Shown piece by piece: positions 1,538-43,536 of a DNA stretch of 64,000 nt (the stretch's first letter is position 1; each line of letters begins with the position of its first letter). The stretch covers positions 3,331,501 to 3,395,500 of the forward strand of contig NZ_CP019419.1 of NCBI RefSeq assembly GCF_001975665.1, read 5' to 3'. The DNA comes from Polaribacter reichenbachii (GTDB lineage Bacteria; Bacteroidota; Bacteroidia; Flavobacteriales; Flavobacteriaceae). Both the position numbers and the translations under genes were made by a program. The notes under the pieces are model-generated. The model ran no database searches. It worked only from the letters and a program-made list of their open reading frames with translations, and was not told the DNA's origin.

Positions 1538-1667
1538 TTGTAACGGTTTTGTATAAGATTAGTTACGTTTTTTAAGCACTAAAGTTAGCAAATAAAACCT
1601 AATAGAAAATCCGCGAGGATTTTCGTAAGTAGGCTGAACTAACAATAAATTATATATGTTGTTGTGT
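1538..1667 (-). repeat. attC-like cassette site 1
   Basis: Left box TTGTAAC (1538-1544) and right box GTTGTGT (1661-1667), with the central stem gaaaatccgcgaggattttc. The extended right box GTTGTGTGTA (1661-1670) is exactly complementary to TACACACAAC (2177-2186) at the far end of the cassette holding the gene at 1677-2156. Confidence 0.85.
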
Positions 1668-1676
1668 GTAGTGTTT

Positions 1677-2156
1677 TTAATATCTAACTTTTATTTCAGT
1701 TCCATTTTTCATATTAAAGATTGATTTCAAAATTCTAGTTAGTTCTTTATGAATAAATTCAATTTCATTTTTTGTTTCAGATTTATACCATTTTGAGTAA
1801 TTAGGTGAAATATTTCCTTCGTTATCTTTTTCATTCGGTTTTGAAAACTCAAGATTTAAAATTTCCTCAATTTTATTTTCAGAGTATTTTTTATTTTCAT
1901 TGAGAAATTCATTACTCACAATTTCTGTGTAAAATTCCTTACTCTTAACAAAACCTTTGTATTGAATATAATAAGAGTCAAATTCAATAATTAAATATTC
2001 TAAATTCGGATTTTTCAATAATATTTCTGTGAAATCTTTCTCAAATTTTTCCTTTTCAGTTTCCCATTTATAGGTTTTTATTTTTTCAAAATTTCTCTTT
2101 TTAAGTAATGCTAAAATTCCGATTGTAACTATTAAAACTCCAATTATTATTTTCAT
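1677..2156 (-). CDS. small membrane-anchored protein of unknown function
   Basis: A 159-residue protein beginning MKIIIGVLIVTIGILALLKK, a single N-terminal transmembrane segment (or uncleaved signal) followed by a lysine-rich, mostly hydrophilic region. An upstream in-frame GTG would add nine residues, but it lies inside the cassette-end box, so the ATG at 2156 is preferred. No family was recognised. The gene fills a cassette whose ends (GTTGTGTGTA / TACACACAAC) are perfectly complementary, and its stop lies just inside the attC that follows it in the reading direction. The single-pass topology suggests an envelope-associated role; nothing further can be said. Confidence 0.75.
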   Translation of the reverse strand: MKIIIGVLIVTIGILALLKKRNFEKIKTYKWETEKEKFEKDFTEILLKNPNLEYLIIEFDSYYIQYKGFVKSKEFYTEIVSNEFLNENKKYSENKIEEILNLEFSKPNEKDNEGNISPNYSKWYKSETKNEIEFIHKELTRILKSIFNMKNGTEIKVRY

Positions 2157-2179
2157 TTTCTGTTCGTTTTTTGCATTAC

Positions 2180-2318
2180 ACACAACGTTGATGTATAAGC
2201 ATTACTTTAATCCGCTTATAAGTACAAACTACACGGGTAATGCTTAGTTTTGGTAGGTTTTACATTTTTTTTGTTAAAGATATTTATTTACTAAGTAATA
2301 GCAAATTAATTGTTAAGG
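2180..2318 (-). repeat. type-2 cassette site (F2-2)
   Basis: It starts with box ACACAAC (2180-2186), the partner of attC site 1. A hairpin TAAGCATTAC/GTAATGCTTA and a T-rich stretch follow, and it ends agcaaattaattGTTAAGG (2312-2318). That end resembles the AGCAATTAATTT...GTTRRR end of the type-1 sites. Confidence 0.75.
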
Positions 2319-2370
2319 TTTTTGTGTTTGTTGTTGGGATTTGGTTGATGTTTTTTTCTTTTTTTATGTT

Positions 2371-2630
2371 CTTTTCCATTGACCCTTCGACTACGCTCAG
2401 GATAAATTCCAAGAACCAAAAATCTAGACTTACTATATCGCTATGCGAGTTACCTACAACCAAAATACATTTTGGTTTTGGTAGTTTGAATTCTACCTCC
2501 TATTCCACTATCGCGTCCAGACCGTTCCACTGCGTTGAGTTCCCCAATCAAGTTGAGGACAGGCTTTGGACACTTGCCGTTTCATAGGACTTGAATTGCT
2601 ACGTAAACTATAGTATGTCGGGGTTTGGAG
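2371..2630 (+). repeat. module B nested-hairpin repeat, copy 3 (long form)
   Basis: Long version of module B. It carries both optional inserts: the palindromic caaccaaaatacattttggtt segment and the gttgagttccccaatcaag apical insert. The frame read through it on the + strand recurs in other module B copies and is a by-product of the repeat, not a gene. Confidence 0.75.
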
Positions 2631-2697
2631 TTTAATTCTTTTGTTTTTTTCTATTGATAAAAGCAAAATATCTAGAAAATATATTCTTCTTTATGTT

Positions 2698-2865
2698 CTT
2701 TTCCATTGATGAAAAGAACCAAAAATCTAGACTTACTATACTTTACTCGAATTCTACGTCCTATTCCACTATCGCGTCCAGACCGTTCCACTGCGCTTCA
2801 CTCTTTGGACATTTGCCGTTTCATAGGACTTGAATTGCTACGTAAACCATAGTATGTCGGGGGTT
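2698..2865 (+). repeat. module B nested-hairpin repeat, copy 4 (short form)
   Basis: Short version of module B, same orientation as copies 1-3, lacking both inserts. No gene is visible between 2319 and 2974. Confidence 0.7.
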
Positions 2866-2974
2866 CTAGTTAAAAGCTTAATTCCTTTTCTTTTTATTTA
2901 TTGCCCTTTTGTCTTTGTTTGGGATTAATTTTAAGGAATAATATTTTAGATTTGTTATTCGCTTTGGGAGCTAG

Positions 2975-3107
2975 TTGTAACGGTTTTGTGTAAAGAAAGT
3001 TGCGGGTTTTATTCACTAACTTTTCGGATTATAACTAATCCTTACATTTATAAAAATCATTTTCGTTTATGTACTAAAACCGCTATTTTTTATATACGTT
3101 TTTAGCC
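2975..3107 (-). repeat. attC-like cassette site 2 (degenerate)
   Basis: The left end TTGTAACGGTTTTGTGTAAAGAAAGTTGCG and right end tatatacgtttttagcc match the type-1 sites, but the central gcgagg stem is replaced by unrelated AT-rich sequence. The right box is mutated (GTTTTTAGCC). Probably a decayed site. Confidence 0.5.
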
Positions 3108-4405: not shown

Positions 4406-4438
4406 GTTTCCTTTTAGACCACGTTTTTTTTAACTTAT

Positions 4439-4570
4439 GTCTAACGTGTTTGTGTAGGAAAAGTTGCGGATTTAAGCACAAAAATTAATAAATAATTACT
4501 GACAAAGAAAATCCGAGAGGATTTTCGTAAGTAGACTCTAACTAGCAATTAATTTTATACGGTGTTGTGG
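4439..4570 (-). repeat. attC-like cassette site 3
   Basis: Left box GTCTAAC, right box GTTGTGG, central stem aaaatccgagaggatttt. The right end GTTGTGGGTAG pairs with TTACCCACAAC (5515-5525) across the HxlR/SRPBCC cassette. The last codons of the gene at 4555-4974 lie inside the site. Confidence 0.85.
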
Positions 4571-5513: not shown

Positions 5514-5518
5514 ATTAC

Positions 5519-5649
5519 CCACAACGTGTTGTGTATGATTAGTGGCGTGTTTAAGCACCTAATTTAACAAATAAAAACCGAATAGAAAATCCGCGAGGAC
5601 TTTCGTAAGTAAGCCAGAAGTAAGCAATAAATTATATATGGTGTTGGCA
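5519..5649 (-). repeat. attC-like cassette site 4
   Basis: Left box CCACAAC (partner of site 3), right box GTTGGCA, central stem gaaaatccgcgaggactttc. The right end GTTGGCATTAG pairs with TTAATGCCAAC (6546-6556) at the far end of the cassette holding the gene at 5650-6537. Confidence 0.85.
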
Positions 5650-6537
5650 TTAGTTATTTTTTATTTCAGATTCTATATTTACCCATTTCACTTTCCAATT
5701 CTTTTCTAGGTGTTCTCCAGTTGTATAAAAAAGAAATTTGTTGTCAGGTGTAACATATGGATTTCCTTGTCCTTTGTTATTAATTTTGTCACTCAATTTT
5801 TTAGTGTCTATCCATTTGCCCTTTCCATTATTATAACTAATCATCAAGTCAAGTTCATTTCCAATTGAAGCAAAAATCAAATAATCTTCTTCTGGTGAAA
5901 TATATGGCGTACATTTTCCGAATTTAGATTTTATTTTAATTCTTTCTGCGTCTACAAATTTTCCATTTACATTTTTTGAGTGATAAATATCCATTTCACT
6001 ATAATCCAAATTACTTGTGTGAAAATATAAAGTTCCAGAATTGGCAATTATAGGATGTGAAACTAATTTGTTTCTCAAATTTGGAATGTCAACAAAAATT
6101 GGTTTAGTCCATTTTCCGTTAACTTTGTCAGATTTCCAAATATGCCAAGTTTGGGGAATTCCTTCAATATTAATTGGTCTTGTTGAACTGAAATAAAGAG
6201 AATTTCCGTTCGGTGAAAAACTCATTCCGTGTTCGGAATATTTACTGCTAAAAAATGCCTTTTTTGGTTCAGACCAATCTTCTTGATTTTTTTCTATTAC
6301 GAAAACTTCAAATTTCTCAAAGTTTTTATCAGAAATAGTATAATAATATTCTTGTAAGTCAGGACTAAATATTCCTTTGTGAATAAGCTTGTTTTGAGGA
6401 ATTAAATTTTGTTTAAACTCAACAGGTATATTGCTTGGGATTTCCTCGGTTAAAAATTTCATTTTAGTGTTTTCGGTTTCATTTCTACAACTCAAAAAGA
6501 CAATTGTAAATAGTAAGATGATTTTGAGTTTGTTCAT
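5650..6537 (-). CDS. lipoprotein with PD40/TolB-like beta-propeller repeats
   Basis: Starts at ATG 6537 (MNKLKIILLFTIVFLSCRNE): a lipoprotein signal peptide with lipobox FLSC. About 275 mature residues follow, with repeated blade-like stretches (EHGMSFSPNGNSLYFSSTRP, TLYFHTSNLDYSEMDIYHS, CTPYISPEEDYLIFASIGNELDLMIS, NPYVTPDNKFLFYTT). The S-P-D/N-G-x-x-L-Y-F pattern is typical of WD40-like PD40 repeats. It is likely an envelope-anchored beta-propeller binding a ligand or protein; no enzymatic residues are seen. The TTG upstream falls in the cassette-end box and was not used. It is a single-gene cassette with matched ends. Confidence 0.75.
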   Translation of the reverse strand: MNKLKIILLFTIVFLSCRNETENTKMKFLTEEIPSNIPVEFKQNLIPQNKLIHKGIFSPDLQEYYYTISDKNFEKFEVFVIEKNQEDWSEPKKAFFSSKYSEHGMSFSPNGNSLYFSSTRPINIEGIPQTWHIWKSDKVNGKWTKPIFVDIPNLRNKLVSHPIIANSGTLYFHTSNLDYSEMDIYHSKNVNGKFVDAERIKIKSKFGKCTPYISPEEDYLIFASIGNELDLMISYNNGKGKWIDTKKLSDKINNKGQGNPYVTPDNKFLFYTTGEHLEKNWKVKWVNIESEIKNN

Positions 6538-6556: not shown

Positions 6557-6771
6557 TTAAGGCTAAACCTAACTTTTTTAATTATTCATATACCTCTCCC
6601 CTTTTTAAGTTCAAGAATATAAAGCAATACAAATGTTGTTATTGGGTATTTACTTTAGTAATTTCTTGTAATAGCTTTATAATTTTAGCCTAAAGATAAG
6701 AAAAACTGACAATACCTCTGCTTAATCAATACAATTATAGGCTATAATAAATAACTTTTAAAAGTTAAGAA

Positions 6772-6903
6772 ACGTAACGTTGATGTGTATGATTAGTGGC
6801 GTGTTTAAGCAATGAATTTACTAAATAAAACACGAACGGCGAAATTCCGAAGGAATTTCCCAAGTGAGCCAAAACTAGCAATAAAGTTTATACGGTGTTA
6901 GGC
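6772..6903 (-). repeat. attC-like cassette site 5 (variant central stem)
   Basis: Left box ACGTAAC (approximately), right box GTTAGGC. The central stem is GAAATTCC-gaa-GGAATTTC instead of GAAAATCC-gcga-GGATTTTC, a paired change that keeps the stem. The right end GTTAGGCACAG pairs with TTGTGCCTAAC (7583-7593). Confidence 0.85.
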
Positions 6904-7861: not shown

Positions 7862-7890
7862 CAAAACCCCCTAAAATCAAGAAAAGTGGT

Positions 7891-7996
7891 TCAGGTAATG
7901 TCAAGTAGTGTCATTCAGTGTCAGGTGGGTTCATTGAGTGTCAAGTAATGTCAATTAACGCCAAGTAATGTCAATTAGCGTCAACTGGTGTCATGT
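7891..7996 (+). repeat. 10-bp periodic tandem repeat upstream of the DUF6266 fragment
   Basis: About eleven imperfect units of the form TCAnnTnnTG recur every 10 bases exactly (tcaggtaatg tcaagtagtg tcattcagtg ...). The period equals one helical turn. It ends about 60 bases before the ATG at 8060. Confidence 0.75.
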
Positions 7997-8059: not shown

Positions 8060-8254
8060 ATGGCAACATTCGAAAAAGGAATCCTTGGTGGATTCTCTGG
8101 AAAAGTAGGTAACGTAGTAGGTTCTCGATGGCGAGGAAAAAACGTTATGCGTAGTTTACCTCAACGTGGTAAATACACTCCAACTACAAAACAAGAGGAA
8201 CAACGTTTAAAGTTTAAAACCGTAATCTCGTTCTTGAGCCCTATTGTAGGCTAG
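8060..8254 (+). pseudogene. N-terminal fragment of a DUF6266 protein
   Basis: ATG 8060 begins MATFEKGILGGFSGKVGNVV and continues SRWRGKNVMRSLPQRGKYTP, the recognisable N-terminus of the DUF6266 family, which is common in Bacteroidota and normally 200 or more residues long. Only about 60 residues remain. The frame runs straight into the right half of an attC-like site (ttgtaggctagaactagccattaatttt...) and stops there. The gene appears to have been cut by an illegitimate joining event involving the cassette array. Confidence 0.75.
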
Positions 8255-8285
8255 AACTAGCCATTAATTTTACACTTTGTTGGTG
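8247..8285 (-). repeat. attC-like half-site (right half only)
   Basis: taggctagaactagccattaattttacactttGTTGGTG matches only the right half of the type-1 sites; the left half and central stem are absent and replaced by DUF6266 coding sequence. The right box is GTTGGTGGTAG. Confidence 0.7.
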
Positions 8286-9715: not shown

Positions 9716-9787
9716 TCTTATTTGCTTTTATTTAAAGACTGATTTAAAAATAGAATGTTGCAATGAATTTAGGTTAGTTTTAATTAG

Positions 9788-9919
9788 CACGAACGTAGTT
9801 GTGTTATGGAAAGTTGCGTGGTTTAGCACTTAACTTTACAAGTACACACCGAACTGAAAATCCGCAAGGATTTTAAGAAGCAGGCGAGAACAAGCAATTA
9901 CTTATAGCCATTGTTGGTA
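9788..9919 (-). repeat. attC-like cassette site 6
   Basis: Left box CACGAAC, right box GTTGGTA, centre gaaaatccgcaaggatttt. The right end GTTGGTAGTAG pairs with TTACTACCAAT near 11930-11940 across a three-gene cassette; the terminal C is mutated to T there. Confidence 0.8.
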
Positions 9920-11932: not shown

Positions 11933-12067
11933 CTACCAATTATAGTATAAGCATAACTTTTATCAGTTTATAAATACAAACTATATGGGTAATGCTTAGC
12001 TTTGGTAGCTTTTAGATTTTTTTTAAAGATATTAATATACTAAGTAATAGCAAATTAATTGTTAAGG
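11933..12067 (-). repeat. type-2 cassette site (F2-3)
   Basis: Begins CTACCAATT (partner of site 6, terminal C changed to T), then tatagTATAAGCATAAC ... GTAATGCTTA, and ends agcaaattaattGTTAAGG (12061-12067). TTTGGTAG just after the hairpin can also pair with CTACCAA at the start. Confidence 0.75.
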
Positions 12068-12200: not shown

Positions 12201-12435
12201 TTCCATTGATGACCCTTCGACTGCGCTCAGGATTGAGAAACAAAAAAATCTAGACTTACTATTCGCTACGCGAGTTACCTACAACCAAAATACATTTTGG
12301 TTTTGATAGTTTGCTTTTTTATGTTCTTTTCCATTGACCCTTCGACTACGCTCAGGATAAATTCCAAGAACCAAAAATCTAGACTTACTATACTTCACTT
12401 GAATTCTACCTCCTATTCCACTATCGCGTCTAGAC
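12201..12435 (+). repeat. module B repeat, copy 5 (two nested partial copies, truncated)
   Basis: Two partial module B units in tandem (12201-12313 and 12325-12435). The second breaks off at gcgtctagac, exactly where the stop codon region of the GH51 gene begins, so this copy was cut by a rearrangement. Upstream, 12080-12160 is low-complexity agttcaaagttcaaag-type sequence. Confidence 0.65.
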
Positions 12436-14001: not shown

Positions 14002-14127
14002 ATACAACTATAATATAAGCATCACTTTTATCAGTTTATATATACAAACTACAAGGGTAATGCTTCTATTTTACTTTTTTTGTTAAAGATATTAATATAC
14101 TAAGTTATAGCAAATTTATTGTTAAGG
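14002..14127 (-). repeat. type-2 cassette site (F2-4)
   Basis: ATACAACTATAATATAAGCATCAC..., hairpin arm GGTAATGCTT, and end caaatttattGTTAAGG (14121-14127). It separates the GH51 cassette from the gene at 14192. Confidence 0.75.
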
Positions 14128-14191
14128 TTTTTGTGTAGGTTATTGGGGTTTGAATAATGGTTTTTCTTTTGACTCTTTATTTTTTCAAATG

Positions 14192-14959
14192 TCATTCAAC
14201 TACTTTATATAAAATCGGTTGTGCACCAACATTATTAGCATAAAAATTGTCGAGGACATATTTCTTAAATGTCTTTTTGAAAATTAAATCTGGTAAAATG
14301 TCTATATACTTATCCCATCTACAATGATTAACTATTGAATATGTCGTTATGTTTTCATTTAAAGGATATAATAAAGTCGAATTATCTAATTCAGTTTCCT
14401 TTTCAAACCAACCCGCTGTGTATTCCCAAACCTTTAAGTTTTGTTCTGTATTTTCTGCTGAAAAATAATTAAAAAGAAATACCCCTTGCTTTTTATGATT
14501 TACACTTCCAATTCTTTTTATATTTAAAGCTGTCATTACTTGAAAATAACTTGACACTTTCTCTATTTCACATAACATCATTTTGTAGGTGCTATGGCTT
14601 TTAATTTCTGAGCATATTTTTTCTGAAGAAGCCTCAATTAAAATAACAAAATCAAATTTTGCCAAATGTATTTTATTTAAATTCTCTTTTACATATTCTC
14701 CCATTCCTGGTGGAATTATTGTAGCCTTAAAAAGGCTGATTTCAATTACACCACTAATTTGGTTTAACTCTTTACACCAATTTTTACATTGCTTTATGAG
14801 CTTTTTCTTTTTATAACTCGTTGTTATGAAAAATGGTGTAAAATTTTTATCAATTTCTGAAGCTATGTGAATATAGTTTGATTTTGTAGGTTTTATTAGA
14901 GAAACCTTATCGTAATTCAGCTGTTTGTTTACTATTTTTAAATTATTGTTTTCTGTCAT
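14192..14959 (-). CDS. protein of unknown function
   Basis: A 255-residue protein from ATG 14959 without a signal peptide or transmembrane segments. It has a mixed alpha/beta composition with a central FDFVILIEASSEKICSEI stretch, GVFLFNYFSAENTEQNLKVW (resembling a ferredoxin-like strand) and WEYTAGWFEKETELDNSTLL. The pattern suggests a dimeric alpha/beta-barrel-like protein, but I cannot assign a family. It is co-oriented with a Crp/Fnr-type regulator ending 75 bases upstream (15034-15597), the regulator-plus-effector arrangement seen repeatedly in this array. Confidence 0.7.
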   Translation of the reverse strand: MTENNNLKIVNKQLNYDKVSLIKPTKSNYIHIASEIDKNFTPFFITTSYKKKKLIKQCKNWCKELNQISGVIEISLFKATIIPPGMGEYVKENLNKIHLAKFDFVILIEASSEKICSEIKSHSTYKMMLCEIEKVSSYFQVMTALNIKRIGSVNHKKQGVFLFNYFSAENTEQNLKVWEYTAGWFEKETELDNSTLLYPLNENITTYSIVNHCRWDKYIDILPDLIFKKTFKKYVLDNFYANNVGAQPILYKVVE

Positions 14960-15033
14960 TTGTTATCGTTTTTAAATACTCTAACAAATTTACAATGTGA
15001 TTTTTCTACTTCTTTTAACAAATGATAAAAACG

Positions 15034-15597
15034 TTATTTATTTGCTCTAATTCTACTTAAAGAAACCTGTGTAATTCCTAAATAACTTGCTAAATCTCCT
15101 AAACTTATTCTTGGCAGTATATGAGAATTTTTTGAAATAAAATTCTCATATCTTTTTTTTGCATCTTCTTCAAGAATTTCACTTATACGTTCCATCATAT
15201 TTAGATTGGCAATTGTCATAAATTTCCGAAAAAAAGTTTCTAATGAATGATGTTTTAAACATAGTTGCTCGAACTTATAAAAAGGTAAGGAATAATATTC
15301 TGTGTTTTCAATAGCAATTATTTCATATTTTGAATGTTGTTTAGAGGTATAACTTTCTATATCAGCAAACAATATATTCTCCGCAAAAAAACGCATTATA
15401 AATTCTTTTCCATCTCCATTAAAACAGAATTTTACAATTCCTTTTTTAATAAAAAATAATTCATTCGAATGTGAATTAACATTCAATAGAAAATCATTTT
15501 TATTTACCTTTTTAAATTTTACAATTGAATCTAAATCAATTATGCAGTCATTATCAAGAGGTGATACTTTTTTACAAAAATTAATAAATTCTATCAT
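15034..15597 (-). CDS. Crp/Fnr-family transcriptional regulator
   Basis: Start chosen at ATG 15597 (MIEFINFCKKVSPL); the longer frame from a TTG reads through the type-2 site. About 187 residues: an N-terminal cyclic-nucleotide-binding-like barrel (FLLNVNSHSNELFFIKKGIV, FIMRFFAENILFADI) and a C-terminal helix-turn-helix (ISLGDLASYLGITQVSLSRI). The nucleotide phosphate-binding motif is not conserved, as in many Bacteroidota members of unknown ligand. It probably controls the unknown gene downstream. Confidence 0.85.
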   Translation of the reverse strand: MIEFINFCKKVSPLDNDCIIDLDSIVKFKKVNKNDFLLNVNSHSNELFFIKKGIVKFCFNGDGKEFIMRFFAENILFADIESYTSKQHSKYEIIAIENTEYYSLPFYKFEQLCLKHHSLETFFRKFMTIANLNMMERISEILEEDAKKRYENFISKNSHILPRISLGDLASYLGITQVSLSRIRANK

Positions 15598-15620
15598 TTT
15601 ATGGTGTGAGTAGTAATTGT

Positions 15621-15745
15621 GGCTAACTATTGTTAAAGCATCACTTTTATACATTTCTAAGTACAAAATACAAGGATAATGCTTCTATTTTACTTTTTTT
15701 GTTAAAGATATTAATATACTAAAGAATAGCACATTATTGTATGCT
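15621..15745 (-). repeat. type-2 cassette site (F2-5)
   Basis: Left box GGCTAAC, then tattgttAAAGCATCAC...GATAATGCTT. The end differs from other copies (agcacattattGTATGCTAG instead of GTTAAGG). Confidence 0.7.
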
Positions 15746-15776
15746 AGTTTTTCTATTTTAAAACACCCTATTATTC

Positions 15777-16151
15777 TTAATACATTTTGTTTTCGTTGGC
15801 AGAGTTTTTTGGTATTTGCTGAATGGCGTCCCAATGCTCTACAATTTTTCCATTAATATCAAATCTAAAAAAATCCATTGTCACATATTCGTCATTATCA
15901 GGCCAAATTTGATGCGTATGTAAAGCCACTAAATCATTTTCTGAAATCACGCGCACGAATTCGATTGTTTTATTTGGGTATTGAGTTTGCATTCGCTCAA
16001 AATATTCTATAAAACCTTCAATTCCATTTTCCACGTCAGTATTATGCTGGATATATTTCGATCCGACATATAATTCCGTTGCTTTTCTTGGATTACCTTC
16101 GTAAGCCATTTTGTAAAAGTCGACAGCATTCTTTTTTAGATTTTCATTCAT
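15777..16151 (-). CDS. SnoaL-like / NTF2-fold protein
   Basis: A 124-residue protein from ATG 16151. It has helices LKKNAVDFYKMAYEGNPRKA and YIQHNTDVENGIEGFIEYFE, followed by strands FVRVISENDLVALHTHQIW, YVTMDFFRFDINGKIVEHWD and AIQQIP. The Q-H-N and H-W-D motifs are characteristic of SnoaL-like polyketide-cyclase-type NTF2 folds (COG4922-like). Enzymatic activity is uncertain; many are ligand-binding or detoxification proteins. It is a single-gene unit bounded by F2-5 and attC site 7. Confidence 0.8.
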   Translation of the reverse strand: MNENLKKNAVDFYKMAYEGNPRKATELYVGSKYIQHNTDVENGIEGFIEYFERMQTQYPNKTIEFVRVISENDLVALHTHQIWPDNDEYVTMDFFRFDINGKIVEHWDAIQQIPKNSANENKMY

Positions 16152-16174
16152 TCTGCTTGTTTTTTTCAGTTTGC

Positions 16175-16307
16175 TTACAACGTCTTTGTATAGAAAAAGT
16201 TGCAGATTTAAATATTAAAGTTAGTATATAAAACACAAACCAAGAAAAATCCGCGAGGACTTTTGTAAGTAGGCTCTAACTAGCAATTAATTTTACACGG
16301 TTTGTAA
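16175..16307 (-). repeat. attC-like cassette site 7
   Basis: Left box TTACAAC, right box (G)TTTGTAAGG, centre gaaaaatccgcgaggactttt. The right end pairs with TCTTACAAC (18803-18811) across the four-gene cassette. The last codons of the acetyltransferase gene are inside it. Confidence 0.8.
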
Positions 16308-17024
16308 GGCGTAATTTTTTATAATAAATTGTTCTTTAAAGCCTAATTTTAAATATAATCCTTTTCCCATATTAGATGATTGTAATGTGATGTAATCACT
16401 ATTCGCTTCTATAGATTGATTTATTAAAAGTTTCATTATTTGTTCTGCGTAACCTTTTCTTCTTTGTTGTGGTATAATACCAAGAGCATGAATACCAGCT
16501 ACTTTATTTGTTGTATGTAAAATGGTTGTTCCGACAGCTTCATCTTTGTCATAAGCAATATAGAAGTTAGTATTTCTATTTGGAGTTTTTAATAATATTG
16601 GATTTATATAATACCCAAAAGATTTAGAAAAAAGGATAGACCATTGTTGAGCTTCTTTTTCGTTAGACACTTCTTTAAGATTTAAAGTGTTTAATTCAGT
16701 AATTAAATCAGGTGTTTTTAATGACATTCCTATTTGTTCAAACTTAAGATGAAATCCATATTGCTCAAGTATTTCAAAAGAATTACTATTGTAAATATTC
16801 CAATAAGGTATAGTTAAATTTGTAGAACACGTTATTATTTTTTCTTTAGCTAATGTTATAATGTCTTTGTTTATTTCTTGATGAAACCATAGCCTATTTG
16901 GCCATTCAGAATTTTTAATTAAACTATAATCAAAATTCATTTCACTAAAATATGAGTCGAATGGTTCGTTTATTGTTTGCCATAGCGAAGTCAAGTTTTC
17001 AATATTTGATTTTATACTGTTCAT
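16293..17024 (-). CDS. GNAT-family N-acetyltransferase
   Basis: A 243-residue protein from ATG 17024. The GNAT core is in the C-terminal half: AVGTTILHTTNKVAGIHALG, then the acetyl-CoA loop IIPQQRRKGYAEQIM (Q/RxxGxG/A-type motif A), and ITLQSSNMGKGLYLKLGFKE (motif B). The N-terminal half is a divergent GNAT-like domain. It transfers acetyl groups to an amine substrate that cannot be predicted. ATGA overlap with the transporter upstream shows translational coupling. The C-terminal LQTV and the stop are encoded by attC site 7. Confidence 0.85.
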   Translation of the reverse strand: MNSIKSNIENLTSLWQTINEPFDSYFSEMNFDYSLIKNSEWPNRLWFHQEINKDIITLAKEKIITCSTNLTIPYWNIYNSNSFEILEQYGFHLKFEQIGMSLKTPDLITELNTLNLKEVSNEKEAQQWSILFSKSFGYYINPILLKTPNRNTNFYIAYDKDEAVGTTILHTTNKVAGIHALGIIPQQRRKGYAEQIMKLLINQSIEANSDYITLQSSNMGKGLYLKLGFKEQFIIKNYALQTV

Positions 17025-22038: not shown

Positions 22039-22054
22039 AGTTTTACTTTATTGT

Positions 22055-28295: not shown

Positions 28296-28312
28296 TTTTG
28301 TGTTTTTTGTAA

Positions 28313-29817: not shown

Positions 29818-29954
29818 GGCTAACGACGTTGTTGTATATGGTTTGTTGCGTGTTTCAAGCAACTAATTTAGTAAATAATTACGGGCAAAGAAAGTCCGCG
29901 ACGACTTTCGCAAGTAGGCAAGAAGCTAGCAATAAATTATATACGGTGTTGTAG
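29818..29954 (-). repeat. attC-like cassette site 12
   Basis: Left box GGCTAAC (partner of site 11), centre gaaagtccgcgacgactttc, right box GTTGTAG. The right end GTTGTAGTGCAT is exactly complementary to ATGCACTACAAC (31094-31105), a perfect 12-bp cassette match. Confidence 0.92.
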
Positions 29955-31098: not shown

Positions 31099-31238
31099 CA
31101 CTACAACTACAATATAAACACAACTTTTGTCAGTTATATCAATACAAATAACAAGAGTAATGCTTAGTTTTAGTATGTTTTACATTTTTTTTATTAAAGA
31201 CATCAATATACTAAGAAATAGCAAATTAATTGTTAAGG
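31099..31238 (-). repeat. type-2 cassette site (F2-8)
   Basis: Left box CTACAAC (partner of site 12), tacaaTATAAACACAAC...GTAATGCTTA, end agcaaattaattGTTAAGG (31232-31238). Confidence 0.8.
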
Positions 31239-31375
31239 TTTACTATATTTCACTTAAATTCTACCTCCTATGCCACTATCGTGTCCAGACCGTATCTTTA
31301 CGTTGAGTTCCCCAATCAAGTTTAGGACAGGCTTTGGACACTTGCCGTTTGATAAGTGTTGAATTGCTAATTTCG
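31239..31375 (+). repeat. module B repeat, copy 8
   Basis: tactatatttcacttaaattctacctcctatgccactatcgtgtccagaccg, with the apical insert gttgagttccccaatcaagt and ending cttgccgtttgataagtgttgaattgcta. No gene in 31124-31704. Confidence 0.65.
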
Positions 31376-32622: not shown

Positions 32623-33651
32623 TCAAAGCGAAAATTCTTTACGTATAATTTCTGTTCCTGCTGTTAAAGCATTTAACTTGTCTTGAGCTATATTTCTAGA
32701 TAAAGGAGCCATACCACAATTTGTACAAGGGTAAAGATTTTCGATATCTACAAACTCAAGAGCTTTACGTAATGTGTCAGCTACCTCTTCGGGTGTTTCA
32801 ATGCTGTTGGTTGCCACATCTATTGCACCGACCATTATTTTTTTTCCACGAATCAGTTCAATTAAATCCATAGGCACTCCCGAGTTTTGACATTCTAAAG
32901 ACACAATGTCAATATTAGAATTCTGAATTTTAGGGAAAATTTCTTCGTATTGTCTCCACTCAGAACCCAATGTCTTTTTCCAATCATTATTGGCTTTTAT
33001 TCCGTAACCATAACAAATATGAACTGCAGTTTCGCAATCTAAACCATCAATAGCTCTTTCTAATACTGCCATTCCCCAATCGTTAACTTCTTCAAAAAAA
33101 ACATTAAACGCTGGTTCATCAAACTGAATAATATCTACACCTGCATCTTGTAGTTCTTTGGCTTCTTCATTGAGTGCTTTAGCAAATTCCCACGCCAATT
33201 TCTCTCGGCTTTTGTAATGGTTGTCATACAAAGTGTCAACCATTGTCATTGGTCCTGGTAATGCCCATTTTATAGGCTTATTGGTCTGTTTGCGTAAAAA
33301 TTTAGCATCATCAACAAAAACTGATTTTCGACGAGCAACATCACCATAAACTACAGGAACACTTGCATCATAACGGTCACGAATTTTTACAACTTTACGA
33401 TTTTCAAAATCAACACCACTTAAAGATTCTATAAACGTTGTTACAAAATGTTGGCGTGTTTGTTCGCCATCGCAGATAATATCAAGACCTGCTAATTGTT
33501 GTTCTTGTAACGAAATACGTAAGGCATCTTGTTTTCCTTCAAGTAATTTGTCGCCTTTTAATTTCCAAGGCGACCAAAGTTTTTCGGGCGTTGCCAACCA
33601 AGCAGGTTTGGGTAAACTTCCAACTGTTGATGTTGGTAATAATTTTTTCAT
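32623..33651 (-). CDS. mesD: folate-independent methionine synthase, MetE-core type (MesD-like)
   Basis: A 342-residue protein from ATG 33651 matching only the catalytic C-terminal domain of cobalamin-independent methionine synthase: it opens PTSTVGSLPKPAWL, then IICDGEQTRQHFVT, LPGPMTMVDTLY, IIQFDEPAFN, the zinc ligands in AVHICYGYG (His, Cys) and the distal Cys in LYPCTNCGMAPLSRN. Short MetE-core proteins act without 5-methyltetrahydrofolate. The neighbouring DUF1852 gene (15 bases upstream) is the known partner of the MesD group, whose methyl donor is unsettled. It makes methionine from homocysteine in the cytosol. Confidence 0.8.
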   Translation of the reverse strand: MKKLLPTSTVGSLPKPAWLATPEKLWSPWKLKGDKLLEGKQDALRISLQEQQLAGLDIICDGEQTRQHFVTTFIESLSGVDFENRKVVKIRDRYDASVPVVYGDVARRKSVFVDDAKFLRKQTNKPIKWALPGPMTMVDTLYDNHYKSREKLAWEFAKALNEEAKELQDAGVDIIQFDEPAFNVFFEEVNDWGMAVLERAIDGLDCETAVHICYGYGIKANNDWKKTLGSEWRQYEEIFPKIQNSNIDIVSLECQNSGVPMDLIELIRGKKIMVGAIDVATNSIETPEEVADTLRKALEFVDIENLYPCTNCGMAPLSRNIAQDKLNALTAGTEIIRKEFSL

Positions 33652-35335: not shown

Positions 35336-35414
35336 AATATTATAACGTATTAAATAGTTATTTAGTCAAATTTTATTTTACCTAAGATTTTGCCTCTAGA
35401 ATATGAGTAATTAA

Positions 35415-35541
35415 GCACAATGTGTATGGTTAGTTGTGTGGCTAAACAATTAAAGTTATTAAATAAAACACTAACCAAGAAAATCCGCGAGGATTTTTGT
35501 AAGTACGCTTTTACCAGCAATTTTTTTATACGGTGTTGTAC
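35415..35541 (-). repeat. attC-like cassette site 14
   Basis: Left box GCACAAT (terminal C to T), centre gaaaatccgcgaggatttt, right box GTTGTAC. The right end GTTGTACAGCG pairs with the far end of the next cassette (AATGCTGTAAAAG, 36754-36766) at 8 of 11 positions. Confidence 0.8.
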
Positions 35542-36758: not shown

Positions 36759-36879
36759 TGTAAAAGGTGTTTGTACAAGGTTTGTTGCGTGGTTTAGCAA
36801 ATTCAAACCAAATAGAAAATCCGCAAGGACTTTCGCAAGTAAGCTAAAAGCAAGCAATAAGGTTTATACTTTGTTGCCA
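36759..36879 (-). repeat. attC-like cassette site 15
   Basis: Left box TGTAAAA(G), mutated from the usual YAAC; centre gaaaatccgcaaggactttc; right box GTTGCCA. The right end GTTGCCACCAG pairs with TTGGTACAAC (37546-37555) imperfectly. Confidence 0.7.
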
Positions 36880-37537: not shown

Positions 37538-37548
37538 TTATCTAATTG

Positions 37549-37681
37549 GTACAACGTTGTTGTATAAGATTAGTTGCGTGGTTTAAGGACTAAAGTTAGC
37601 AAATAAATCACAGATAGAAAATCCGCGAGGATTTTCGTAAGTAAGCAAAAAGCCAGCAATAAATTATATATGGTGTTACTT
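37549..37681 (-). repeat. attC-like cassette site 16
   Basis: Left box GTACAAC, centre gaaaatccgcgaggattttc, right box GTTACTT. The right end GTTACTTGCAG pairs with TTGCAAGTAAC (38735-38745). Confidence 0.88.
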
Positions 37682-37693: not shown

Positions 37694-38731
37694 TCAATTT
37701 TGTTCTTGATTCCATTCATATTCTAAATTATATAATTCGTAATCAGAGAATTTCAATTTTTCAATAATACCATTATATATTTTATCAGGGTTATTTTTTA
37801 ATGCTTTCCAAATTTTTTCAAAATGTACATCTCTTTGAAAATCCTCTGTTTTCATAATAGAATTTTCTAATAATTTTCTAGATTCTAAATTTTTAAAACT
37901 TACAATAGTTTCGTAAAGAACCTTAATAATTATATAATCAAATCCAGTTTTTTTGTCTAATTCTTGTTGATGTATTTTTCTAACGTCACTAAATAAAACT
38001 TCATTAGGATGATTTATTACAGATTTTAAACCACAAGTTTGTATTTCAGTTCTTTTGCTATTAAGGAGTTTGATAATTAATGGCAAATTTTCTTTCTTCT
38101 TAAATCTTGATAAAGCTATAACAGCTGAATTTTCTCCTAATAATGCAAGTCTTTTTAATTGAGAATAAAACTTTTCTTCTGGCTCAATTTTTTCAAGAAG
38201 TTCGTTTTTATAATTTAGTATTAAATTTTCATTAAAAATGACTAAACTATCTAATTCTTTTTTTTGCTTTTTTAAAGAATCATTTCTCAAAGAGTATTTA
38301 TAAAATAAAGAATTAATTAGATAATCATTAACCCTTGTTTCATCTCCAATACAACCATATTGAGTATAAACAGTTGTAGAATCTTTCAGGTTGTTTTTTA
38401 AAATTTCAAAACTATTTTTATTTTTTTGCTTTACTAAAATATCATAAGTGTAACATTTAACGACTGGATTTGGATGTTCCATTAATGCCAATAATTCATA
38501 TTCAGAAGCATTTTTCTTAAACTCTATAAAGTTATCCCATTGTTTTGGTTTTGTTGGAAGTTCTCCAACAAAAGGCCCTGTGATTTCTCCATATTCAATA
38601 ATGTTTGAAATTATTGCTTGAGTTTTTGAACTTAATTTTCCTTCATTTAAGAAATCAATTTTTTCTTTCTTTAAATTACAAGAAGTAAATAAGATTAAGA
38701 AAGATATTAAGTAAGCAATTTCGTTTCTCAT
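37694..38731 (-). CDS. lipoprotein with HEAT-like helical repeats, unknown function
   Basis: ATG 38731 gives MRNEIAYLISFLILFTSC, a lipoprotein signal; a TTG three codons upstream in the cassette end was rejected. The 345-residue protein is helix-rich with repeated blocks such as YELLALMEHPNPVVKCYTYD and LPLIIKLLNSKRTEIQTCGL that resemble HEAT repeats. It is likely an envelope-anchored scaffold or binding protein. Single-gene cassette with closely matched ends. Confidence 0.75.
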   Translation of the reverse strand: MRNEIAYLISFLILFTSCNLKKEKIDFLNEGKLSSKTQAIISNIIEYGEITGPFVGELPTKPKQWDNFIEFKKNASEYELLALMEHPNPVVKCYTYDILVKQKNKNSFEILKNNLKDSTTVYTQYGCIGDETRVNDYLINSLFYKYSLRNDSLKKQKKELDSLVIFNENLILNYKNELLEKIEPEEKFYSQLKRLALLGENSAVIALSRFKKKENLPLIIKLLNSKRTEIQTCGLKSVINHPNEVLFSDVRKIHQQELDKKTGFDYIIIKVLYETIVSFKNLESRKLLENSIMKTEDFQRDVHFEKIWKALKNNPDKIYNGIIEKLKFSDYELYNLEYEWNQEQN

Positions 38732-38738
38732 ATATTGC

Positions 38739-38870
38739 AAGTAACGGTTGTGTATAAGAATAGTGCGGTTTTGTATGCGAGGATTTTCCGAAGGAAAATC
38801 AGATGTAACAAAAGCGCACGAACTCTTGATTAAGCACTAAACTACGCATTATTTTTATACGATGTTGTAC
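38739..38870 (-). repeat. attC-like cassette site 17 (variant centre)
   Basis: Left box AAGTAAC (partner of site 16), right box GTTGTAC. The internal stem is GATTTTCC-gaa-GGAAAATC, placed in the left half, followed by gcacgaactcttgattaagcactaaactacgc. The right end GTTGTACACAGGC pairs with GCTTGTGTACAAC (39311-39323) at 12 of 13 positions. Confidence 0.88.
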
Positions 38871-38879: not shown

Positions 38880-39293
38880 TTATTCAGTTATATATTCAAA
38901 TACTATTTTCGGATTTATAGATTCCGATTCTTTTTTTTGTTTAAAAATCTCTAACTTTTTATTGTATCGAATTGTTAAAGTATCAAAATTTTTCCACTCA
39001 AAATTTACATCTTTTGGTTTTATAAATCCAGCACTTGCAACAAAGATTGGTTCAGGTTCATTTTTTTCGTCGTAATTGCATTCAGTCGCGTAAATATGAA
39101 TTGATCGATTCGTAGTCGCATTTCCAGTCATTTCAGTCATTTTTATTTTCCGCAAACTTTCGTAATCGCATTCCGCTTTTAATTCGGTTTCAGTTGGTTC
39201 GTCGAAAACCTCAAAGTTTGCCATTAAAACAACGAATCCGATAATGGCTATAATTCCGAGTAGTAAAATCCCAATTATTATCTTTTTTATCAA
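38880..39293 (-). CDS. single-pass membrane protein of unknown function
   Basis: A 137-residue protein with an N-terminal transmembrane helix (KKIIIGILLLGIIAIIGFVV) and a C-terminal region containing IHIYATECNYDEKNEPEPIF and FEWKNFDTLTIRYNKKLEIF, plausibly a small beta domain with a Cys pair. The start is a TTG at 39293; no ATG precedes the helix. No family was recognised. Single-gene cassette with 12-of-13 matched ends. Confidence 0.72.
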   Translation of the reverse strand: MIKKIIIGILLLGIIAIIGFVVLMANFEVFDEPTETELKAECDYESLRKIKMTEMTGNATTNRSIHIYATECNYDEKNEPEPIFVASAGFIKPKDVNFEWKNFDTLTIRYNKKLEIFKQKKESESINPKIVFEYITE

Positions 39294-39316
39294 GTTTGAG
39301 TGAGTTTTTAGCTTGT

Positions 39317-39450
39317 GTACAACGTTGTTGTGTAAGAAAAGTTACGTGGTTTAAGCAATAAAGTTAGTAAATAAAACACAAACCAAGAAAATCCGCGAGG
39401 ATTTTCGTAAGTAGGCTAGAACTAGCAATAAATTATATACGGTGTTGTAG
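39317..39450 (-). repeat. attC-like cassette site 18
   Basis: Left box GTACAAC (partner of site 17), centre gaaaatccgcgaggattttc, right box GTTGTAG. The right end GTTGTAGCACG pairs with TGTGCTACAAC (40195-40205). Confidence 0.9.
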
Positions 39451-39457
39451 CACGTTT

Positions 39458-39937
39458 TTATTCTGATTTTTTATAAGTCAAGATTATATCTTTATCGTCA
39501 GGTTGTATATGTTTTATTGTTGGATAATTATTTGCCTTTACTAAACTATCCCAATTTGTTTTAAAATCTTCTGAATTTTCAGGTTCAAGATATGATTCAG
39601 TTCCGTTTTTATATGATTCTTTAATCGATTTCGATTCGTAAAGCAATGTTCTAGTTAAATATTCTAATTGTCCAACAAGTTTTCCGTCTTGATAAAGTTT
39701 TATAAAACCATCGCACGTTGTTCCTCCACAATCTCCAGTAGGCAACACATAAATTCCGTTTTTATTCTTTTCTAAAATTGATTTATCATCAATCAATTCA
39801 AGAGTTTTATTTGCATAGTTAACATTCACAAGTAACCAATTTCCTTTGTTAAAATTTCGATTTTCTAAAATGTTGTCGGATTTTGAACAACTTGATAGTA
39901 AAATAAAAATGGTTGCTATTTTAATTGTTAATTTCAT
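39458..39937 (-). CDS. lipoprotein of unknown function
   Basis: A 159-residue protein from ATG 39937, lipoprotein signal MKLTIKIATIFILLSSCS. The mature region holds GIYVLPTGDCGGTTCDGFIK (Cys pair) and a beta-rich end KHIQPDDKDIILTYKKSE. Not recognised. It overlaps the short upstream gene (39934-40176) by 4 bases, so the two are translationally coupled in one cassette. Confidence 0.75.
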   Translation of the reverse strand: MKLTIKIATIFILLSSCSKSDNILENRNFNKGNWLLVNVNYANKTLELIDDKSILEKNKNGIYVLPTGDCGGTTCDGFIKLYQDGKLVGQLEYLTRTLLYESKSIKESYKNGTESYLEPENSEDFKTNWDSLVKANNYPTIKHIQPDDKDIILTYKKSE

Positions 39938-40176
39938 TGATTTTCTAAAATAAATTCATCGAACAGTATTTGTTCATTTTGCTTTTCAGTCGTCATTTCT
40001 GATAGTTTTAAATCACTCATTCCTCTTGGCGAATAGAAAAACGTTTTCCAAATTGGTCTATGTTTAATGAAAATATTTTTTCCTCCAAATTCATCGTGAG
40101 TATAGATTCCAACCCAGAATTTAGAGACGATTAAAATTCCGATTATTAATATTAAAATCCCTGTCTTTCTTTTCAA
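39934..40176 (-). CDS. small single-pass membrane protein of unknown function
   Basis: About 80 residues. The start is a TTG at 40176 (read as MKRKTGILILIIGILIVSKF); longer readings run into the cassette-end box and attC. One transmembrane helix is followed by a charged, largely soluble tail (IKHRPIWKTFFYSPRGMSDL). ATGA overlap with the lipoprotein gene downstream suggests the pair acts together at the envelope. Confidence 0.65.
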   Translation of the reverse strand: MKRKTGILILIIGILIVSKFWVGIYTHDEFGGKNIFIKHRPIWKTFFYSPRGMSDLKLSEMTTEKQNEQILFDEFILENQ

Positions 40177-40198
40177 TTCGTGAGTTTTCTCAAATGTG

Positions 40199-40332
40199 CT
40201 ACAACGTTGTTGTATATGGTTTGTTGCGTGTTTCAAGCAACTAATTTAGTAAATAATTACCGACCAAGAAAGTCCGCGAGGACTTTCGCAAGTAGGCAAG
40301 AAGCCAGCAATAAATTATATACGGTGTTGGCA
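40199..40332 (-). repeat. attC-like cassette site 19
   Basis: Left box CTACAAC (partner of site 18), centre gaaagtccgcgaggactttc, right box GTTGGCA. The right end GTTGGCAACTGGC pairs with GCTTGTTGCCAAC (41171-41183). Within the site the two outer boxes are not complementary beyond AAC/GTT, while each matches across its cassette. Confidence 0.92.
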
Positions 40333-41150: not shown

Positions 41151-41176
41151 TTTTTAGCGTTCTGATTTTAGCTTGT

Positions 41177-41309
41177 TGCCAACGTGTTTGTGTAAGATTA
41201 GTTGCGTGTTTCAAGCAACTAATTTACTAGATTAATCACGAACGGCGAAATTCCGAAGGAATTTCCCAAGTGAGCTAAAACTAGCAATTAATTTTACACG
41301 GTGTTGTAG
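41177..41309 (-). repeat. attC-like cassette site 20 (variant central stem)
   Basis: Left box TGCCAAC, right box GTTGTAG, central stem GAAATTCC-gaa-GGAATTTC (the same paired variant as site 5). The right end GTTGTAGGTAG pairs with ATTACCTACAAC (42050-42061). Confidence 0.9.
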
Positions 41310-42037: not shown

Positions 42038-42054
42038 ATTTTTTTGGTAATTAC

Positions 42055-42186
42055 CTACAACGTCTTAGGCTATGTTTAGTTGCGTTTTCGTAGCTAAAAG
42101 TAAGTAAATAAACACAAACAAGAAAATCCGCGAGGATTTTCGTAAATAATAAATAAAGTAGCAATTAAATATAGCCATTGTTGGCA
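42055..42186 (-). repeat. attC-like cassette site 21
   Basis: Left box CTACAAC (partner of site 20), centre gaaaatccgcgaggattttc, right box GTTGGCA. The right end GTTGGCATTAG pairs with TTAATGCCAAC (42620-42630). The outer right half (aataaataaagtagcaattaaatatagcc) is more diverged than usual. Confidence 0.87.
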
Positions 42187-42549
42187 TTAGTTTTTTTTAA
42201 TTCCATTTATTTTGTCAATCTCTTCAGCTATAGATGTAATTTGTTTCCAATGAATATTTGTTATTTTTTCCCAGTGTCCGTTTATAGAATCTGTAATTAT
42301 AAACTTAAAAATTAAACCAAAATAAAACAACATAACCAAAATGAAATATTTATTAAATTCCAACGTAATAAAGAAGTATATCATAAGTCCAATATTCAAA
42401 ACATACGTAAAAACAAAAAAAAGAAATTTCTTAATATATGAGATAGCTTTTTTTCTTTCAGGAAGTATTGGTTCAATATATTTTCTTGATAACAGAGATA
42501 TAGCTGTTGATACAAGTATTAATAATATTCTTATAGTGTTTTCACTCAT
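42187..42549 (-). CDS. small membrane protein of unknown function
   Basis: A 120-residue protein from ATG 42549 with three hydrophobic helices (TIRILLILVSTAISLLSR, FLFFVFTYVLNIGLMIYFFI, YFILVMLFYFGLIFKFII) and a short charged C-terminus. No family recognised. The opposite-strand frame over this region is a shadow, as the cassette orientation and R-K-rich loops support the minus strand. Confidence 0.7.
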   Translation of the reverse strand: MSENTIRILLILVSTAISLLSRKYIEPILPERKKAISYIKKFLFFVFTYVLNIGLMIYFFITLEFNKYFILVMLFYFGLIFKFIITDSINGHWEKITNIHWKQITSIAEEIDKINGIKKN

Positions 42550-42623
42550 ATTTTGTAATTTTATTATTAGTTACAATATTATTCAAATACTTAAAATAAT
42601 AGTCCGAAAATATTGGTAATTAA

Positions 42624-42756
42624 TGCCAACGTGTTTATATATGGTTTGTTGCGTGTTTATGCAACCAAGTTAATAAATAATTACTGACATAGAAAATCCG
42701 CGAGGATTTTCGTAAGTAAGCAAAAAGCCAGCAATAAATTATATATGTTGTTGGCT
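42624..42756 (-). repeat. attC-like cassette site 22
   Basis: Left box TGCCAAC (partner of site 21), centre gaaaatccgcgaggattttc, right box GTTGGCT. The right end GTTGGCTGTAG pairs with TTACAGCCAAC (43398-43408). Confidence 0.9.
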
Positions 42757-42764
42757 GTAGTTTT

Positions 42765-43295
42765 TTAATATGTTCTTATAACTTCGTCATATGTTCTACA
42801 CCAATTTATAATTTTTCCTTTGTCATTAAATTCAATATGATAAGTCTCGTATAAATATTTATTCGTTATATGAATATTCACAAAAATGCGTTCAGTTCCG
42901 TTTATTTCTTTGTGTGGTGCTGTTATCTGTAATTTTGGATAAGTTCCGTTTCCATTCCTTTTGATTTTGAATTTCTTTTTGTCCAAATTCGAGAAATCAA
43001 GTTCAAATCTATCGGAATCAATATTTAATTGAGTTTCTAAATAAGATTCCAATTCTTTAAATTGAGTTTTACTTTTCCAACTTATTCCTAAACAGATTGG
43101 ATTGTAAAATCCCGTTCTTGGTGGATGAAAATCCATAACATATGGATAAACTTTTATTTTCTTTTTTGAAGGAAAAGAATCAATTATTGTTGATTGATAA
43201 AAGTCAAACGCAATTTGTTCATAAAATGGAAATTCGGTTTGCGAGATTCCAATTCCGCAATTGAGTAAGAAAGTCAGAAGTATTGCTTTTTTCAA
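42765..43295 (-). CDS. secreted protein of unknown function
   Basis: A 176-residue protein with signal peptide (KKAILLTFLLNCGIGISQ). The start is a TTG at 43295, because an in-frame TAA lies three codons upstream and no ATG is available. The mature region is beta-rich (FELDFSNLDKKKFKIKRNGN, ERIFVNIHITNKYLYETYHI, EFNDKGKIINWCRTYDEVIR). No family recognised. It is the last cassette at the right end of the array. Confidence 0.72.
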   Translation of the reverse strand: MKKAILLTFLLNCGIGISQTEFPFYEQIAFDFYQSTIIDSFPSKKKIKVYPYVMDFHPPRTGFYNPICLGISWKSKTQFKELESYLETQLNIDSDRFELDFSNLDKKKFKIKRNGNGTYPKLQITAPHKEINGTERIFVNIHITNKYLYETYHIEFNDKGKIINWCRTYDEVIRTY

Positions 43296-43401
43296 ATCAC
43301 TTTATTTAGTATTCAATTCCAATTTAATTCAGTTTGCTTTTATAGAAAAGTCTTAATTAGTAAACACTATATTTCGTTTAGTTAACGGACTTTTAAATTA
43401 C

Positions 43402-43536
43402 AGCCAACTACAGTATAAGCCTAACTTTTATCCGTTTATAAGTACAAAATACAGGGCTAATGCTTAGTTTTACTACCTTTTATATTTTTTTTTAAAGATA
43501 TTAATATACTATGGAATAGCAAATTAATTGTTAAGT
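43402..43536 (-). repeat. type-2 cassette site (F2-9), right limit of the array
   Basis: Left box AGCCAAC (partner of site 22), tacagTATAAGCCTAAC...CTAATGCTTA, and end agcaaattaattGTTAAGt. No attC-like site of either type is visible further right. Confidence 0.75.

Follow-up and report, generated by a model that had tools for sequence, protein, structure and literature searches.

An integron-like cassette array in Polaribacter reichenbachii and its probable Xer-type integrase

What moves genes between the regularly spaced hairpin repeats of a long array in Polaribacter reichenbachii, and are these repeats the recombination sites of an integron? The window analysed here is a stretch of 64,000 nucleotides (nt) of this genome (NZ_CP019419.1, positions 3,331,501 to 3,395,500), and positions below refer to it unless they carry the prefix C1, which denotes the genome's single contig of 4,125,014 bases. 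A sequence-only reading of the window had proposed an integron cassette array without a local integrase. We found that the repeats are very probably attC-like cassette ends, and that the array likely belongs, as a satellite, to an integron-like system with a predicted integrase of the Xer type, encoded about 0.3 Mb away.

To locate the sites we used a covariance model, R1, which holds nine base pairs and yields rough E-values; it was seeded with 26 sites, 18 from the window and 8 from L008, a locus of the same genome with an integrase, an attI-like site and a second array, so that matches to these sites are expected by construction. R1 found 22 attC-like sites in the window (E≤0.1), all on the minus strand, about 125–135 nt long and running from 1537 to 42756. 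A two-half weight-matrix scan with hand-picked seeds returned 19 sites on the minus strand and none on the plus strand, with one hit in total across ten shuffled copies of the minus strand. These counts agree with the 23 traces, about 19 of them well formed, that had been noticed earlier between 1538 and 43408; the array is headed by an attI-like element, and 43408 coincides with its crossover G. The genes had also been described as lying nearly all on one strand and ending at the site that follows, and this was borne out: 41 of the 47 open reading frames (ORFs) in a hand-picked list for the array part are on the minus strand, and a minus-strand stop codon lies within 21 nt of the R'' side at 21 of the 22 sites. 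Rfam searched at gathering thresholds matched nothing in the window.

Integrons cut their sites at G^TT, and the arm on the TT side of a site in an array then belongs to the next cassette. It follows from this crossover that the junction which opens a cassette is complementary to that cassette's own R'' arm. We examined this relation in all fetched arrays, starting from 338 sites; with 24 truncated model ends and 2 sites at record ends removed, there were 253 neighbouring pairs separated by 250–5000 nt, of which 245 had GTT at all three places, and 233 remained after L155 was left out, which lies on the same contig as L016. R'' matched the upstream junction at six or more of seven variable positions in 173 of the 233 cassettes, and matched R' of its own site in 13. 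When identical end pairs were collapsed, the upstream match was seen in 102 of 160 against 10 for the own site, and permuted pairings gave a mean of 5.1 and a maximum of 14 of 160. The match was absent in 60 of the 233 cassettes, and the failures in the window fell mainly at decayed sites or where an attI-like head intervenes. All eight cassettes of L008 showed it, with runs of 9–10 nt (seven by tabulated comparison, and the first from its attI junction, which was read directly and found again by a blind partner search), and one of them also matches its own site. In the window it held in seven of the ten scored pairs overall, and in six of six testable cassettes of the block at 37.5–43.4 kb. 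Judged by sequence, the window sites behave as integron-type cassette ends, with the outer arm complementary to the start of its own cassette and not to the array neighbour.

Copies of cassettes were cut at the same point. The complete minus-strand cassette at 39323–40204, which holds the ORF 39458–39937 and most of the ORF 39934–40236, has a copy at C1:3740458-3741337, in the second array. Both copies begin and end at G^TT, their first 819 nt are identical, their neighbours differ, and identity falls to 0.27 over the 100 nt past the 3' boundary. The last 63 nt, which form the 3' half of attC, carry 16 differences, a pattern not seen in the other near-identical pairs; this tail perhaps reflects a later exchange between attC sites. 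Among 255 cassettes in 26 stretches we found 117 homologous pairs. Sixteen near-identical pairs have equal length, and 14 of them repeat three cassettes of a single genome (G014). In 15 of the 16, similarity was lost past the 3' boundary (0.21–0.42), and one pair, in L150, kept an identity of 0.94. In genome G014 (C1:2213001-2263000, L137–L139) one array contains at least seven copies of a cassette of about 558 nt, which are 97–100% identical. Cassettes that are 89–97% identical were also found in different genera, as in Algibacter (L016) and Xanthomarina (L043), and also in genomes G113 and G157. The complementary ends and the copies cut at G^TT, together with the lack of any recombinase match inside the window in either an IntI-model or a Xer-like search of the genome, uphold the proposal of an integron-type cassette array without a local integrase. 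The first two of these make a stronger test of it than those suggested at the outset.

A further comparison concerned Polaribacter vadi, the closest named relative at the integrase (92% identity). Its locus L014 aligns with L008 at 92.8% over 6.2 kb upstream and at 89.7% over integrase and attI; the alignment ends 3 nt past the crossover G, and beyond it, across 4.5 kb of array in L014, only attC sites align. Up to the putative crossover point the platform is conserved; the cassettes that follow are not the same. Synteny with G131 near 47.4–53.2 kb of the window was also considered and is little informative: two neighbouring genes align, and the 60 kb examined hold no site.

We then described the site itself in 249 cassettes set in circle form; the set includes within-genome repeats and sites of shared descent, so its members are not independent. 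The inner L'' and L' boxes pair best, at a mean of 92%, with a spacer of 3 nt next to R'' and one of 6 nt next to R', in agreement with the sequence-only reading. The paired boxes covary, the main combinations being GTGTAT/ATACAC (59 cassettes), GTATAT/ATATAC (48), GTATAA/TTATAC (43) and GGCTAT/ATAGCC (34). Along the arms, pairing reaches 0.79–0.87 at positions 4–9, 0.62 at position 10, 0.05 at position 11 and 0.68–0.81 at positions 12–14; at position 11 the top strand has A:C, and hence the bottom strand a T:G wobble, in 203 of the 249. With DNA energies the bottom strand was predicted to be the more stable one in 245 of 249, with a mean of −25.1 kcal/mol versus −20.8 kcal/mol for the top strand. 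In 189 of 249 the predicted fold of the circle form was more stable than that of the array form. Four window sites whose bottom strands were folded singly gave z-scores of −1.8 to −4.6. Some R1 matches are about 190–200 nt long (C1:3709114-3709312, C1:3715955-3716152 and C1:3461450-3461647, as well as matches in L014, L016, L017, L030, L035, L036, L038 and L043) and are perhaps a longer attC variant with a central insertion.

The sequence-only reading had expected an integrase with the IntI-specific domain elsewhere in the genome. This expectation failed: no IntI above the curated cut-off was found in the genome, and the best match, below it, was a tyrosine recombinase of another type (193 bits with TIGR02249, cut-off 265). 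Its gene lies 298 kb from the window, directly followed by an attI-like site and then by the second array, which is longer than that of the window and has 37 R1 matches (C1:3695607-3750993), every one of them downstream of the integrase gene and on the plus strand. In a full alignment the stretch from the KDR to the RH motif measures 61–62 residues in 29 of 29 array-linked integrases versus 103 in 20 of 20 IntIs, so that the insertion of 41–42 residues present in all 20 compared IntIs is missing from the array-linked enzymes. The catalytic residues R-H-R-H-Y are present in all 29, and the reading frame of the P. reichenbachii integrase is open. A tree placed the IntI clade apart from the array integrases (Shimodaira-Hasegawa-like approximate likelihood-ratio test, SH-aLRT, 100), where the label "array" includes loci with one or two sites, some of them weak (L020, L022, L026, L029 and L041). 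The best sequence matches among solved structures are those of archaeal XerA (5hxy and 4a8e). The integrase also scores 224.1, over the cut-off of 220, with NF040815 (NCBIfam, recomb_XerA_Arch; "site-specific tyrosine recombinase/integron integrase"), and some of its relatives are annotated with that name. The predicted recombinase is not IntI but a Xer-type tyrosine recombinase without the IntI-defining insertion. Since the genome has no IntI above the cut-off and a Xer-type integrase adjoins an array, the system appears to be integron-like with an unrecognised type of integrase.

The integrase is extended at its N-terminus by an extra domain of about 95 residues. In 36 integrases searched against Pfam, three integrase families matched every member, the second of them, a SAM-like one, from residue 52 in the first member, and no family spanned the whole N-terminal domain. 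Foldseek gave no match for this domain at E≤0.001 among the families listed; its predicted fold may resemble the XPB/HARP-type damage-recognition domain. We examined gene order at 52 of 80 named integrase loci. Sites (E≤0.001) were present at 15 of the 52, and the other 37 had none. Of these sites, 50 lie downstream of the integrase and 2 upstream of it on its own strand, and 9 lie upstream in reverse orientation. The reverse upstream sites were confined to L051 and L055, whose integrases, of about 280 residues, are too short for the N-terminal domain. In these two loci the array lies on the integrase's other side and points away from it, as in standard integrons; the arrays of L143 and L150 run the same way as the integrase.

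Directly behind the integrase stop codon stands a junction of the form TATATAC-AAG^TT or TATATCC-AATTG^TT, and then the first cassette. This attI junction was read by eye in 19 loci, L029 and L039 being looser than the others. A partner of 10 nt was sought blind for every GTT junction downstream of the integrase gene, and one was found in 15 of 40 loci versus 6% of shuffles. In L021, L022, L027, L040 and L042 the junction partners precede sequences unlike R1 (for example AACAGGCGTTTGG in L042); they suggest further attC types in other Bacteroidota, and some of them may have arisen by chance. In two Polaribacter loci the attI region contains TTTG-N19-TATCTTTA, overlapping the end of the integrase gene, which we take to be a match to the Bacteroidota promoter consensus. 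This consensus was found in both Polaribacter attI regions and in five of nine heads in the window, and 4 of 18 other integrase loci had some match to a looser form. The exact motif occurs five times on the minus strand of the window, each time within a head, and not at all on the plus strand.

These heads are nine minus-strand elements of the window, from 638–757 to 43408–43530, that align with the two Polaribacter attI regions (alignment A6). In eight of them the junction could be scored against R'' of the next attC; it exceeded the best control in four and not in the other four. The head at 43408–43530 has the promoter consensus and a junction of 9/9 (best control 7), and it stands before the best-preserved block of cassettes. 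Above their controls too were the heads at 31108–31230 (9/9, best control 7), 25088–25210 (8/9, best control 6) and 11940–12058 (9/9, best control 8; promoter consensus). The score equalled the best control at 18808–18925 (7/9, 7; promoter consensus), 2184–2308 (9/9, 9; promoter consensus) and 638–757 (7/9, 7; also in A6), and fell below it at 14002–14118 (6/9, best control 7; in A6, with promoter consensus). The head at 15618–15735 was missed by the junction-scoring pattern and is known from A6 only. The window array seems to consist of several successive attI-headed blocks without an integrase. The label CALIN (cluster of attC sites lacking an integron integrase), which had been proposed for it, may fit insofar as attC-like sites are present and no integrase is; with nine attI-like elements, the array is no simple CALIN. 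Repeats of a family called D6 had also been considered as an excisable promoter cassette; the upstream junction of the head at 31116 does not match its own 5' arm by eye, and an attI-like head fits better. Another repeat family, D5 (GGTCTGGACGCGATAGTGGAATAGGAGGTAGAATTC...), lies just upstream of many heads (938–1058, 1240–1360, 2360–2480, 2663–2783, 12315–12435 and 43558–43678), with related repeats near 18936, 25221 and 31243.

The individual sites differ in preservation. Going up the window, attC-like sites lie at 1537–1667 (R1 score 120.1 bits), 4438–4570 (129.8 bits), 5518–5649 (126.4 bits; its R' pairs over 10 nt with R'' of the 4438 site), 6771–6903 (120.6 bits), 9787–9919 (84.1 bits), 16174–16308 (116.5 bits) and 22054–22186 (126.6 bits). 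The block behind the uppermost head contains those at 37548–37681 (136.3 bits), 38738–38870 (98.7 bits; a second subtype of the central hairpin in alignment A3), 39316–39450 (140.6 bits), 40198–40332 (140 bits), 41176–41309 (126.5 bits), 42054–42186 (112.9 bits; the L-box variant GGCTAT/ATAGCC) and 42623–42756 (134.9 bits), the last being the first in its block. Altered sites stand among them: a degenerate one at 2974–3107 (71.4 bits), a truncated or decayed one at 8197–8285 (25.8 bits, E 0.035), a decayed one with no GTT at 19082–19215 (32.4 bits), two in which GGT (22975–23107, 131.9 bits) or GTC (29820–29954, 131.3 bits) replaces GTT, one with a decayed 3' part at 28312–28424 (74.6 bits), and two with a decayed R' at 35408–35541 (105.3 bits) and 36759–36879 (104.3 bits). 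Short repeats of the type TTGACATTACTTGACACT run between two cassette genes at about 7890–7995.

Such decay raises the question of whether the cassettes were once mobile and the window array is now dead. The loss of GTT or of an arm at 19082, 22975, 28312, 29820, 35408 and 36759, and the failing end matches in the middle of the array, speak for a fossil. The block at 37.5–43.4 kb, with its unbroken end matches, and the seven of ten pairs in the window speak against it, as do the cassette held in common with the integrase-borne array and an integrase with an open frame and all catalytic residues. We consider a dead array improbable, although of the alternatives it fares best.

The sites are not confined to this genome. 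At least 87 R1 matches were found in it (E≤0.1, 150 of 8543 candidates scored), 21 of them in the window and all of those on the minus strand. In Flavobacteriaceae, the window's family, sites were found in 169 of 199 genomes drawn from 198 genera (E≤1e-4, at most 16 scored in each), and several genomes have arrays of tens of cassettes. Well-formed arrays of the size seen here had earlier been called rarely described from this family; such sites are not rare in it. The integrase is present in 119 of the 199 genomes (E≤1e-70), and sites occur in 115 of the 119 integrase-positive versus 54 of the 80 integrase-negative genomes (Fisher p 2e-8). A plasmid of Tenacibaculum finnmarkense (L177, CP116298.1 103650-115775, match 6001–6126) also bears a site, with 96.8% identity across 126 nt, and about 5.5 kb from it the opposite strand encodes a tyrosine recombinase; a second T. 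finnmarkense plasmid matches too. In L008 a cassette of the integrase-borne array (14007–16250) encodes an AAA_13 ATPase that scores 620 bits with PDC-S06, a candidate family of phage-defence proteins, and is predicted to serve in defence.

In a draw of 198 genomes across the phylum, 38 had sites. Twelve belong to Flavobacteriaceae, and 13 of the other 26, with 1–4 sites each, are also on the list of genomes with a standard IntI; some of these cassettes thus seem to reside in genomes with a true IntI. This overlap would fit a standard integron in which an ordinary IntI, elsewhere or in past hosts, moves the cassettes and the local Xer-type gene is a bystander, and so would the attC-like form of the sites. 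The lytic Polaribacter phage P12002L (L136) carries the same site family, with five R1 sites (E≤0.001) on both strands at 14498–14628, 31114–31318, 32794–32929, 38032–38094 and 39119–39249, some of them near DNA methyltransferase genes. In a published study, one of two assayed attC sites of this phage recombined with attI1 through IntI1 in E. coli, by the bottom strand only (PMC9892861); the assayed attC could not be matched to one of our coordinates. Against a standard integron, no IntI passes the cut-off in P. reichenbachii or in 196 genomes of its order, though the same model does so in 84 of 296 genomes of the phylum, and the Xer-type gene adjoins the attI-like site and array across a range of genera. 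We regard an IntI-driven array as unlikely.

Still less likely, in our judgement, is that the housekeeping pair XerC/XerD moves the cassettes, in the manner of integrative mobile elements exploiting Xer (IMEX). Xer enzymes are able to use foreign sites, and the genome has two further Xer-like genes, 34% and 28% identical to the integrase; one of these two (C1:3008603-3009451) lies about 2.3 kb from the first match (C1:3011726) of a smaller array. The platform and its array are nevertheless tied to the third recombinase. That the sites are merely transcription terminators, repetitive extragenic palindromes (REP/REPIN) or intergenic repeats resembling miniature inverted-repeat transposable elements (MITEs) is scarcely credible: one-stranded hairpins just behind stop codons and their high number in the genome would suit such repeats, but the arm match across whole cassettes, the cassette copies, the conserved G^TT and a dedicated attI-like site would not be expected of them, and the end-match test contradicts them.

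How far does the P. reichenbachii system resemble known ones? The features of standard integrons used for this comparison belong in part to general background. As in superintegrons, with their IntI, attI and attC sites like Vibrio cholerae repeats (VCR), the cassettes mostly hold one gene, an attC of about 120 nt stands at each 3' end and is cut at G^TT, the ends match across the cassette, attI adjoins the integrase, arrays reach tens of cassettes and the bottom-strand fold is favoured. Unlike them, the integrase has no IntI insertion and an extra N-terminal domain, and mostly points in the same direction as the array; the arms extend to 14 nt with the conserved A:C (bottom-strand T:G) at position 11, spacers measure 3 and 6 nt, and several attI-like heads stand within one satellite array. 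The window array shares with CALINs its attC-like sites without an integrase, and differs from them in its attI-like heads and in that the same genome encodes a different kind of integrase next to a further array. With XerA and other Xer recombinases the integrase shares the best structural match and an equal KDR-RH length; it departs from them in its link to attI-like sites and cassette arrays, its N-terminal domain and the presence of two other Xer-like genes. The model NF040815, whose short name is that of archaeal XerA, predicts neither a cassette array nor attC.

Taken together, an attI-like site with a G^TT crossover beside the integrase, the box, arm and fold architecture of attC, and end-matching cassettes that appear mobile are present as in integrons, and what is missing is the IntI-specific additional domain of the integrase. 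Because these sequence features of integrons are present, the one that defines the enzyme is absent, and the promoters of the platform are candidates, we call the system integron-like, with a putative Xer-type integrase that lacks the additional domain. That domain has been called necessary in one paper (PMC9668308), and another describes the insertion as "not fully conserved" in an integron-like subgroup, yet essential (PMC8138268). Two articles list Bacteroidota among integron-bearing phyla (PMC8618304, PMC9668308). According to the IntegronFinder 2.0 survey, Bacteroidetes had previously yielded nothing but In0 elements, to which the survey added a single complete integron, that of Salinibacter ruber (PMC9024848). 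Our searches of open-licence papers in PubMed Central, a collection without bioRxiv and with few subscription journals, brought up no description of an integrase that lacks the additional domain and serves arrays of Flavobacteriaceae.

We propose that a cassette circle would carry a single attC, built as R'', 3 nt, L'', centre, L', 6 nt and G, followed by TT and its arm. The bottom strand of this attC would form a hairpin, to be cleaved at G^TT, and the integrase would then join the cut attC either to the attI-like site downstream of the integrase gene or, in the satellite array, to a head or an attC. Once joined, the cassette could be transcribed from a promoter within the attI-like site. We infer that the Xer-type integrase would be the enzyme, acting on folded single strands without the insertion, that the N-terminal domain would help to recognise the hairpin, and that the promoters would drive the cassettes. 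On a broader view, to which we give an even chance, a second integron lineage would extend over most of the Flavobacteriaceae and into other Bacteroidota. Its Xer/XerA-like enzyme would recombine folded single-stranded attC in the absence of the domain considered essential in IntI, with hairpin recognition taken over by the XPB-like domain, and cassette capture would have been achieved by a second enzyme with the same attC substrates as true IntI.

Since most genomes of the family carry these sites, and the survey with IntI and attC models (PMC9024848) reports almost no integrons in Bacteroidetes, a widespread gene-capture system of Flavobacteriaceae has probably been overlooked. Cassettes cross genera, sites occur on plasmids, and one cassette carries a predicted phage-defence gene. 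If our reading is correct, integrons that probably escape present tools would shuffle the genes of a large bacterial family, and the need for the additional domain of IntI on folded attC would become directly testable with natural enzymes that do not have it.

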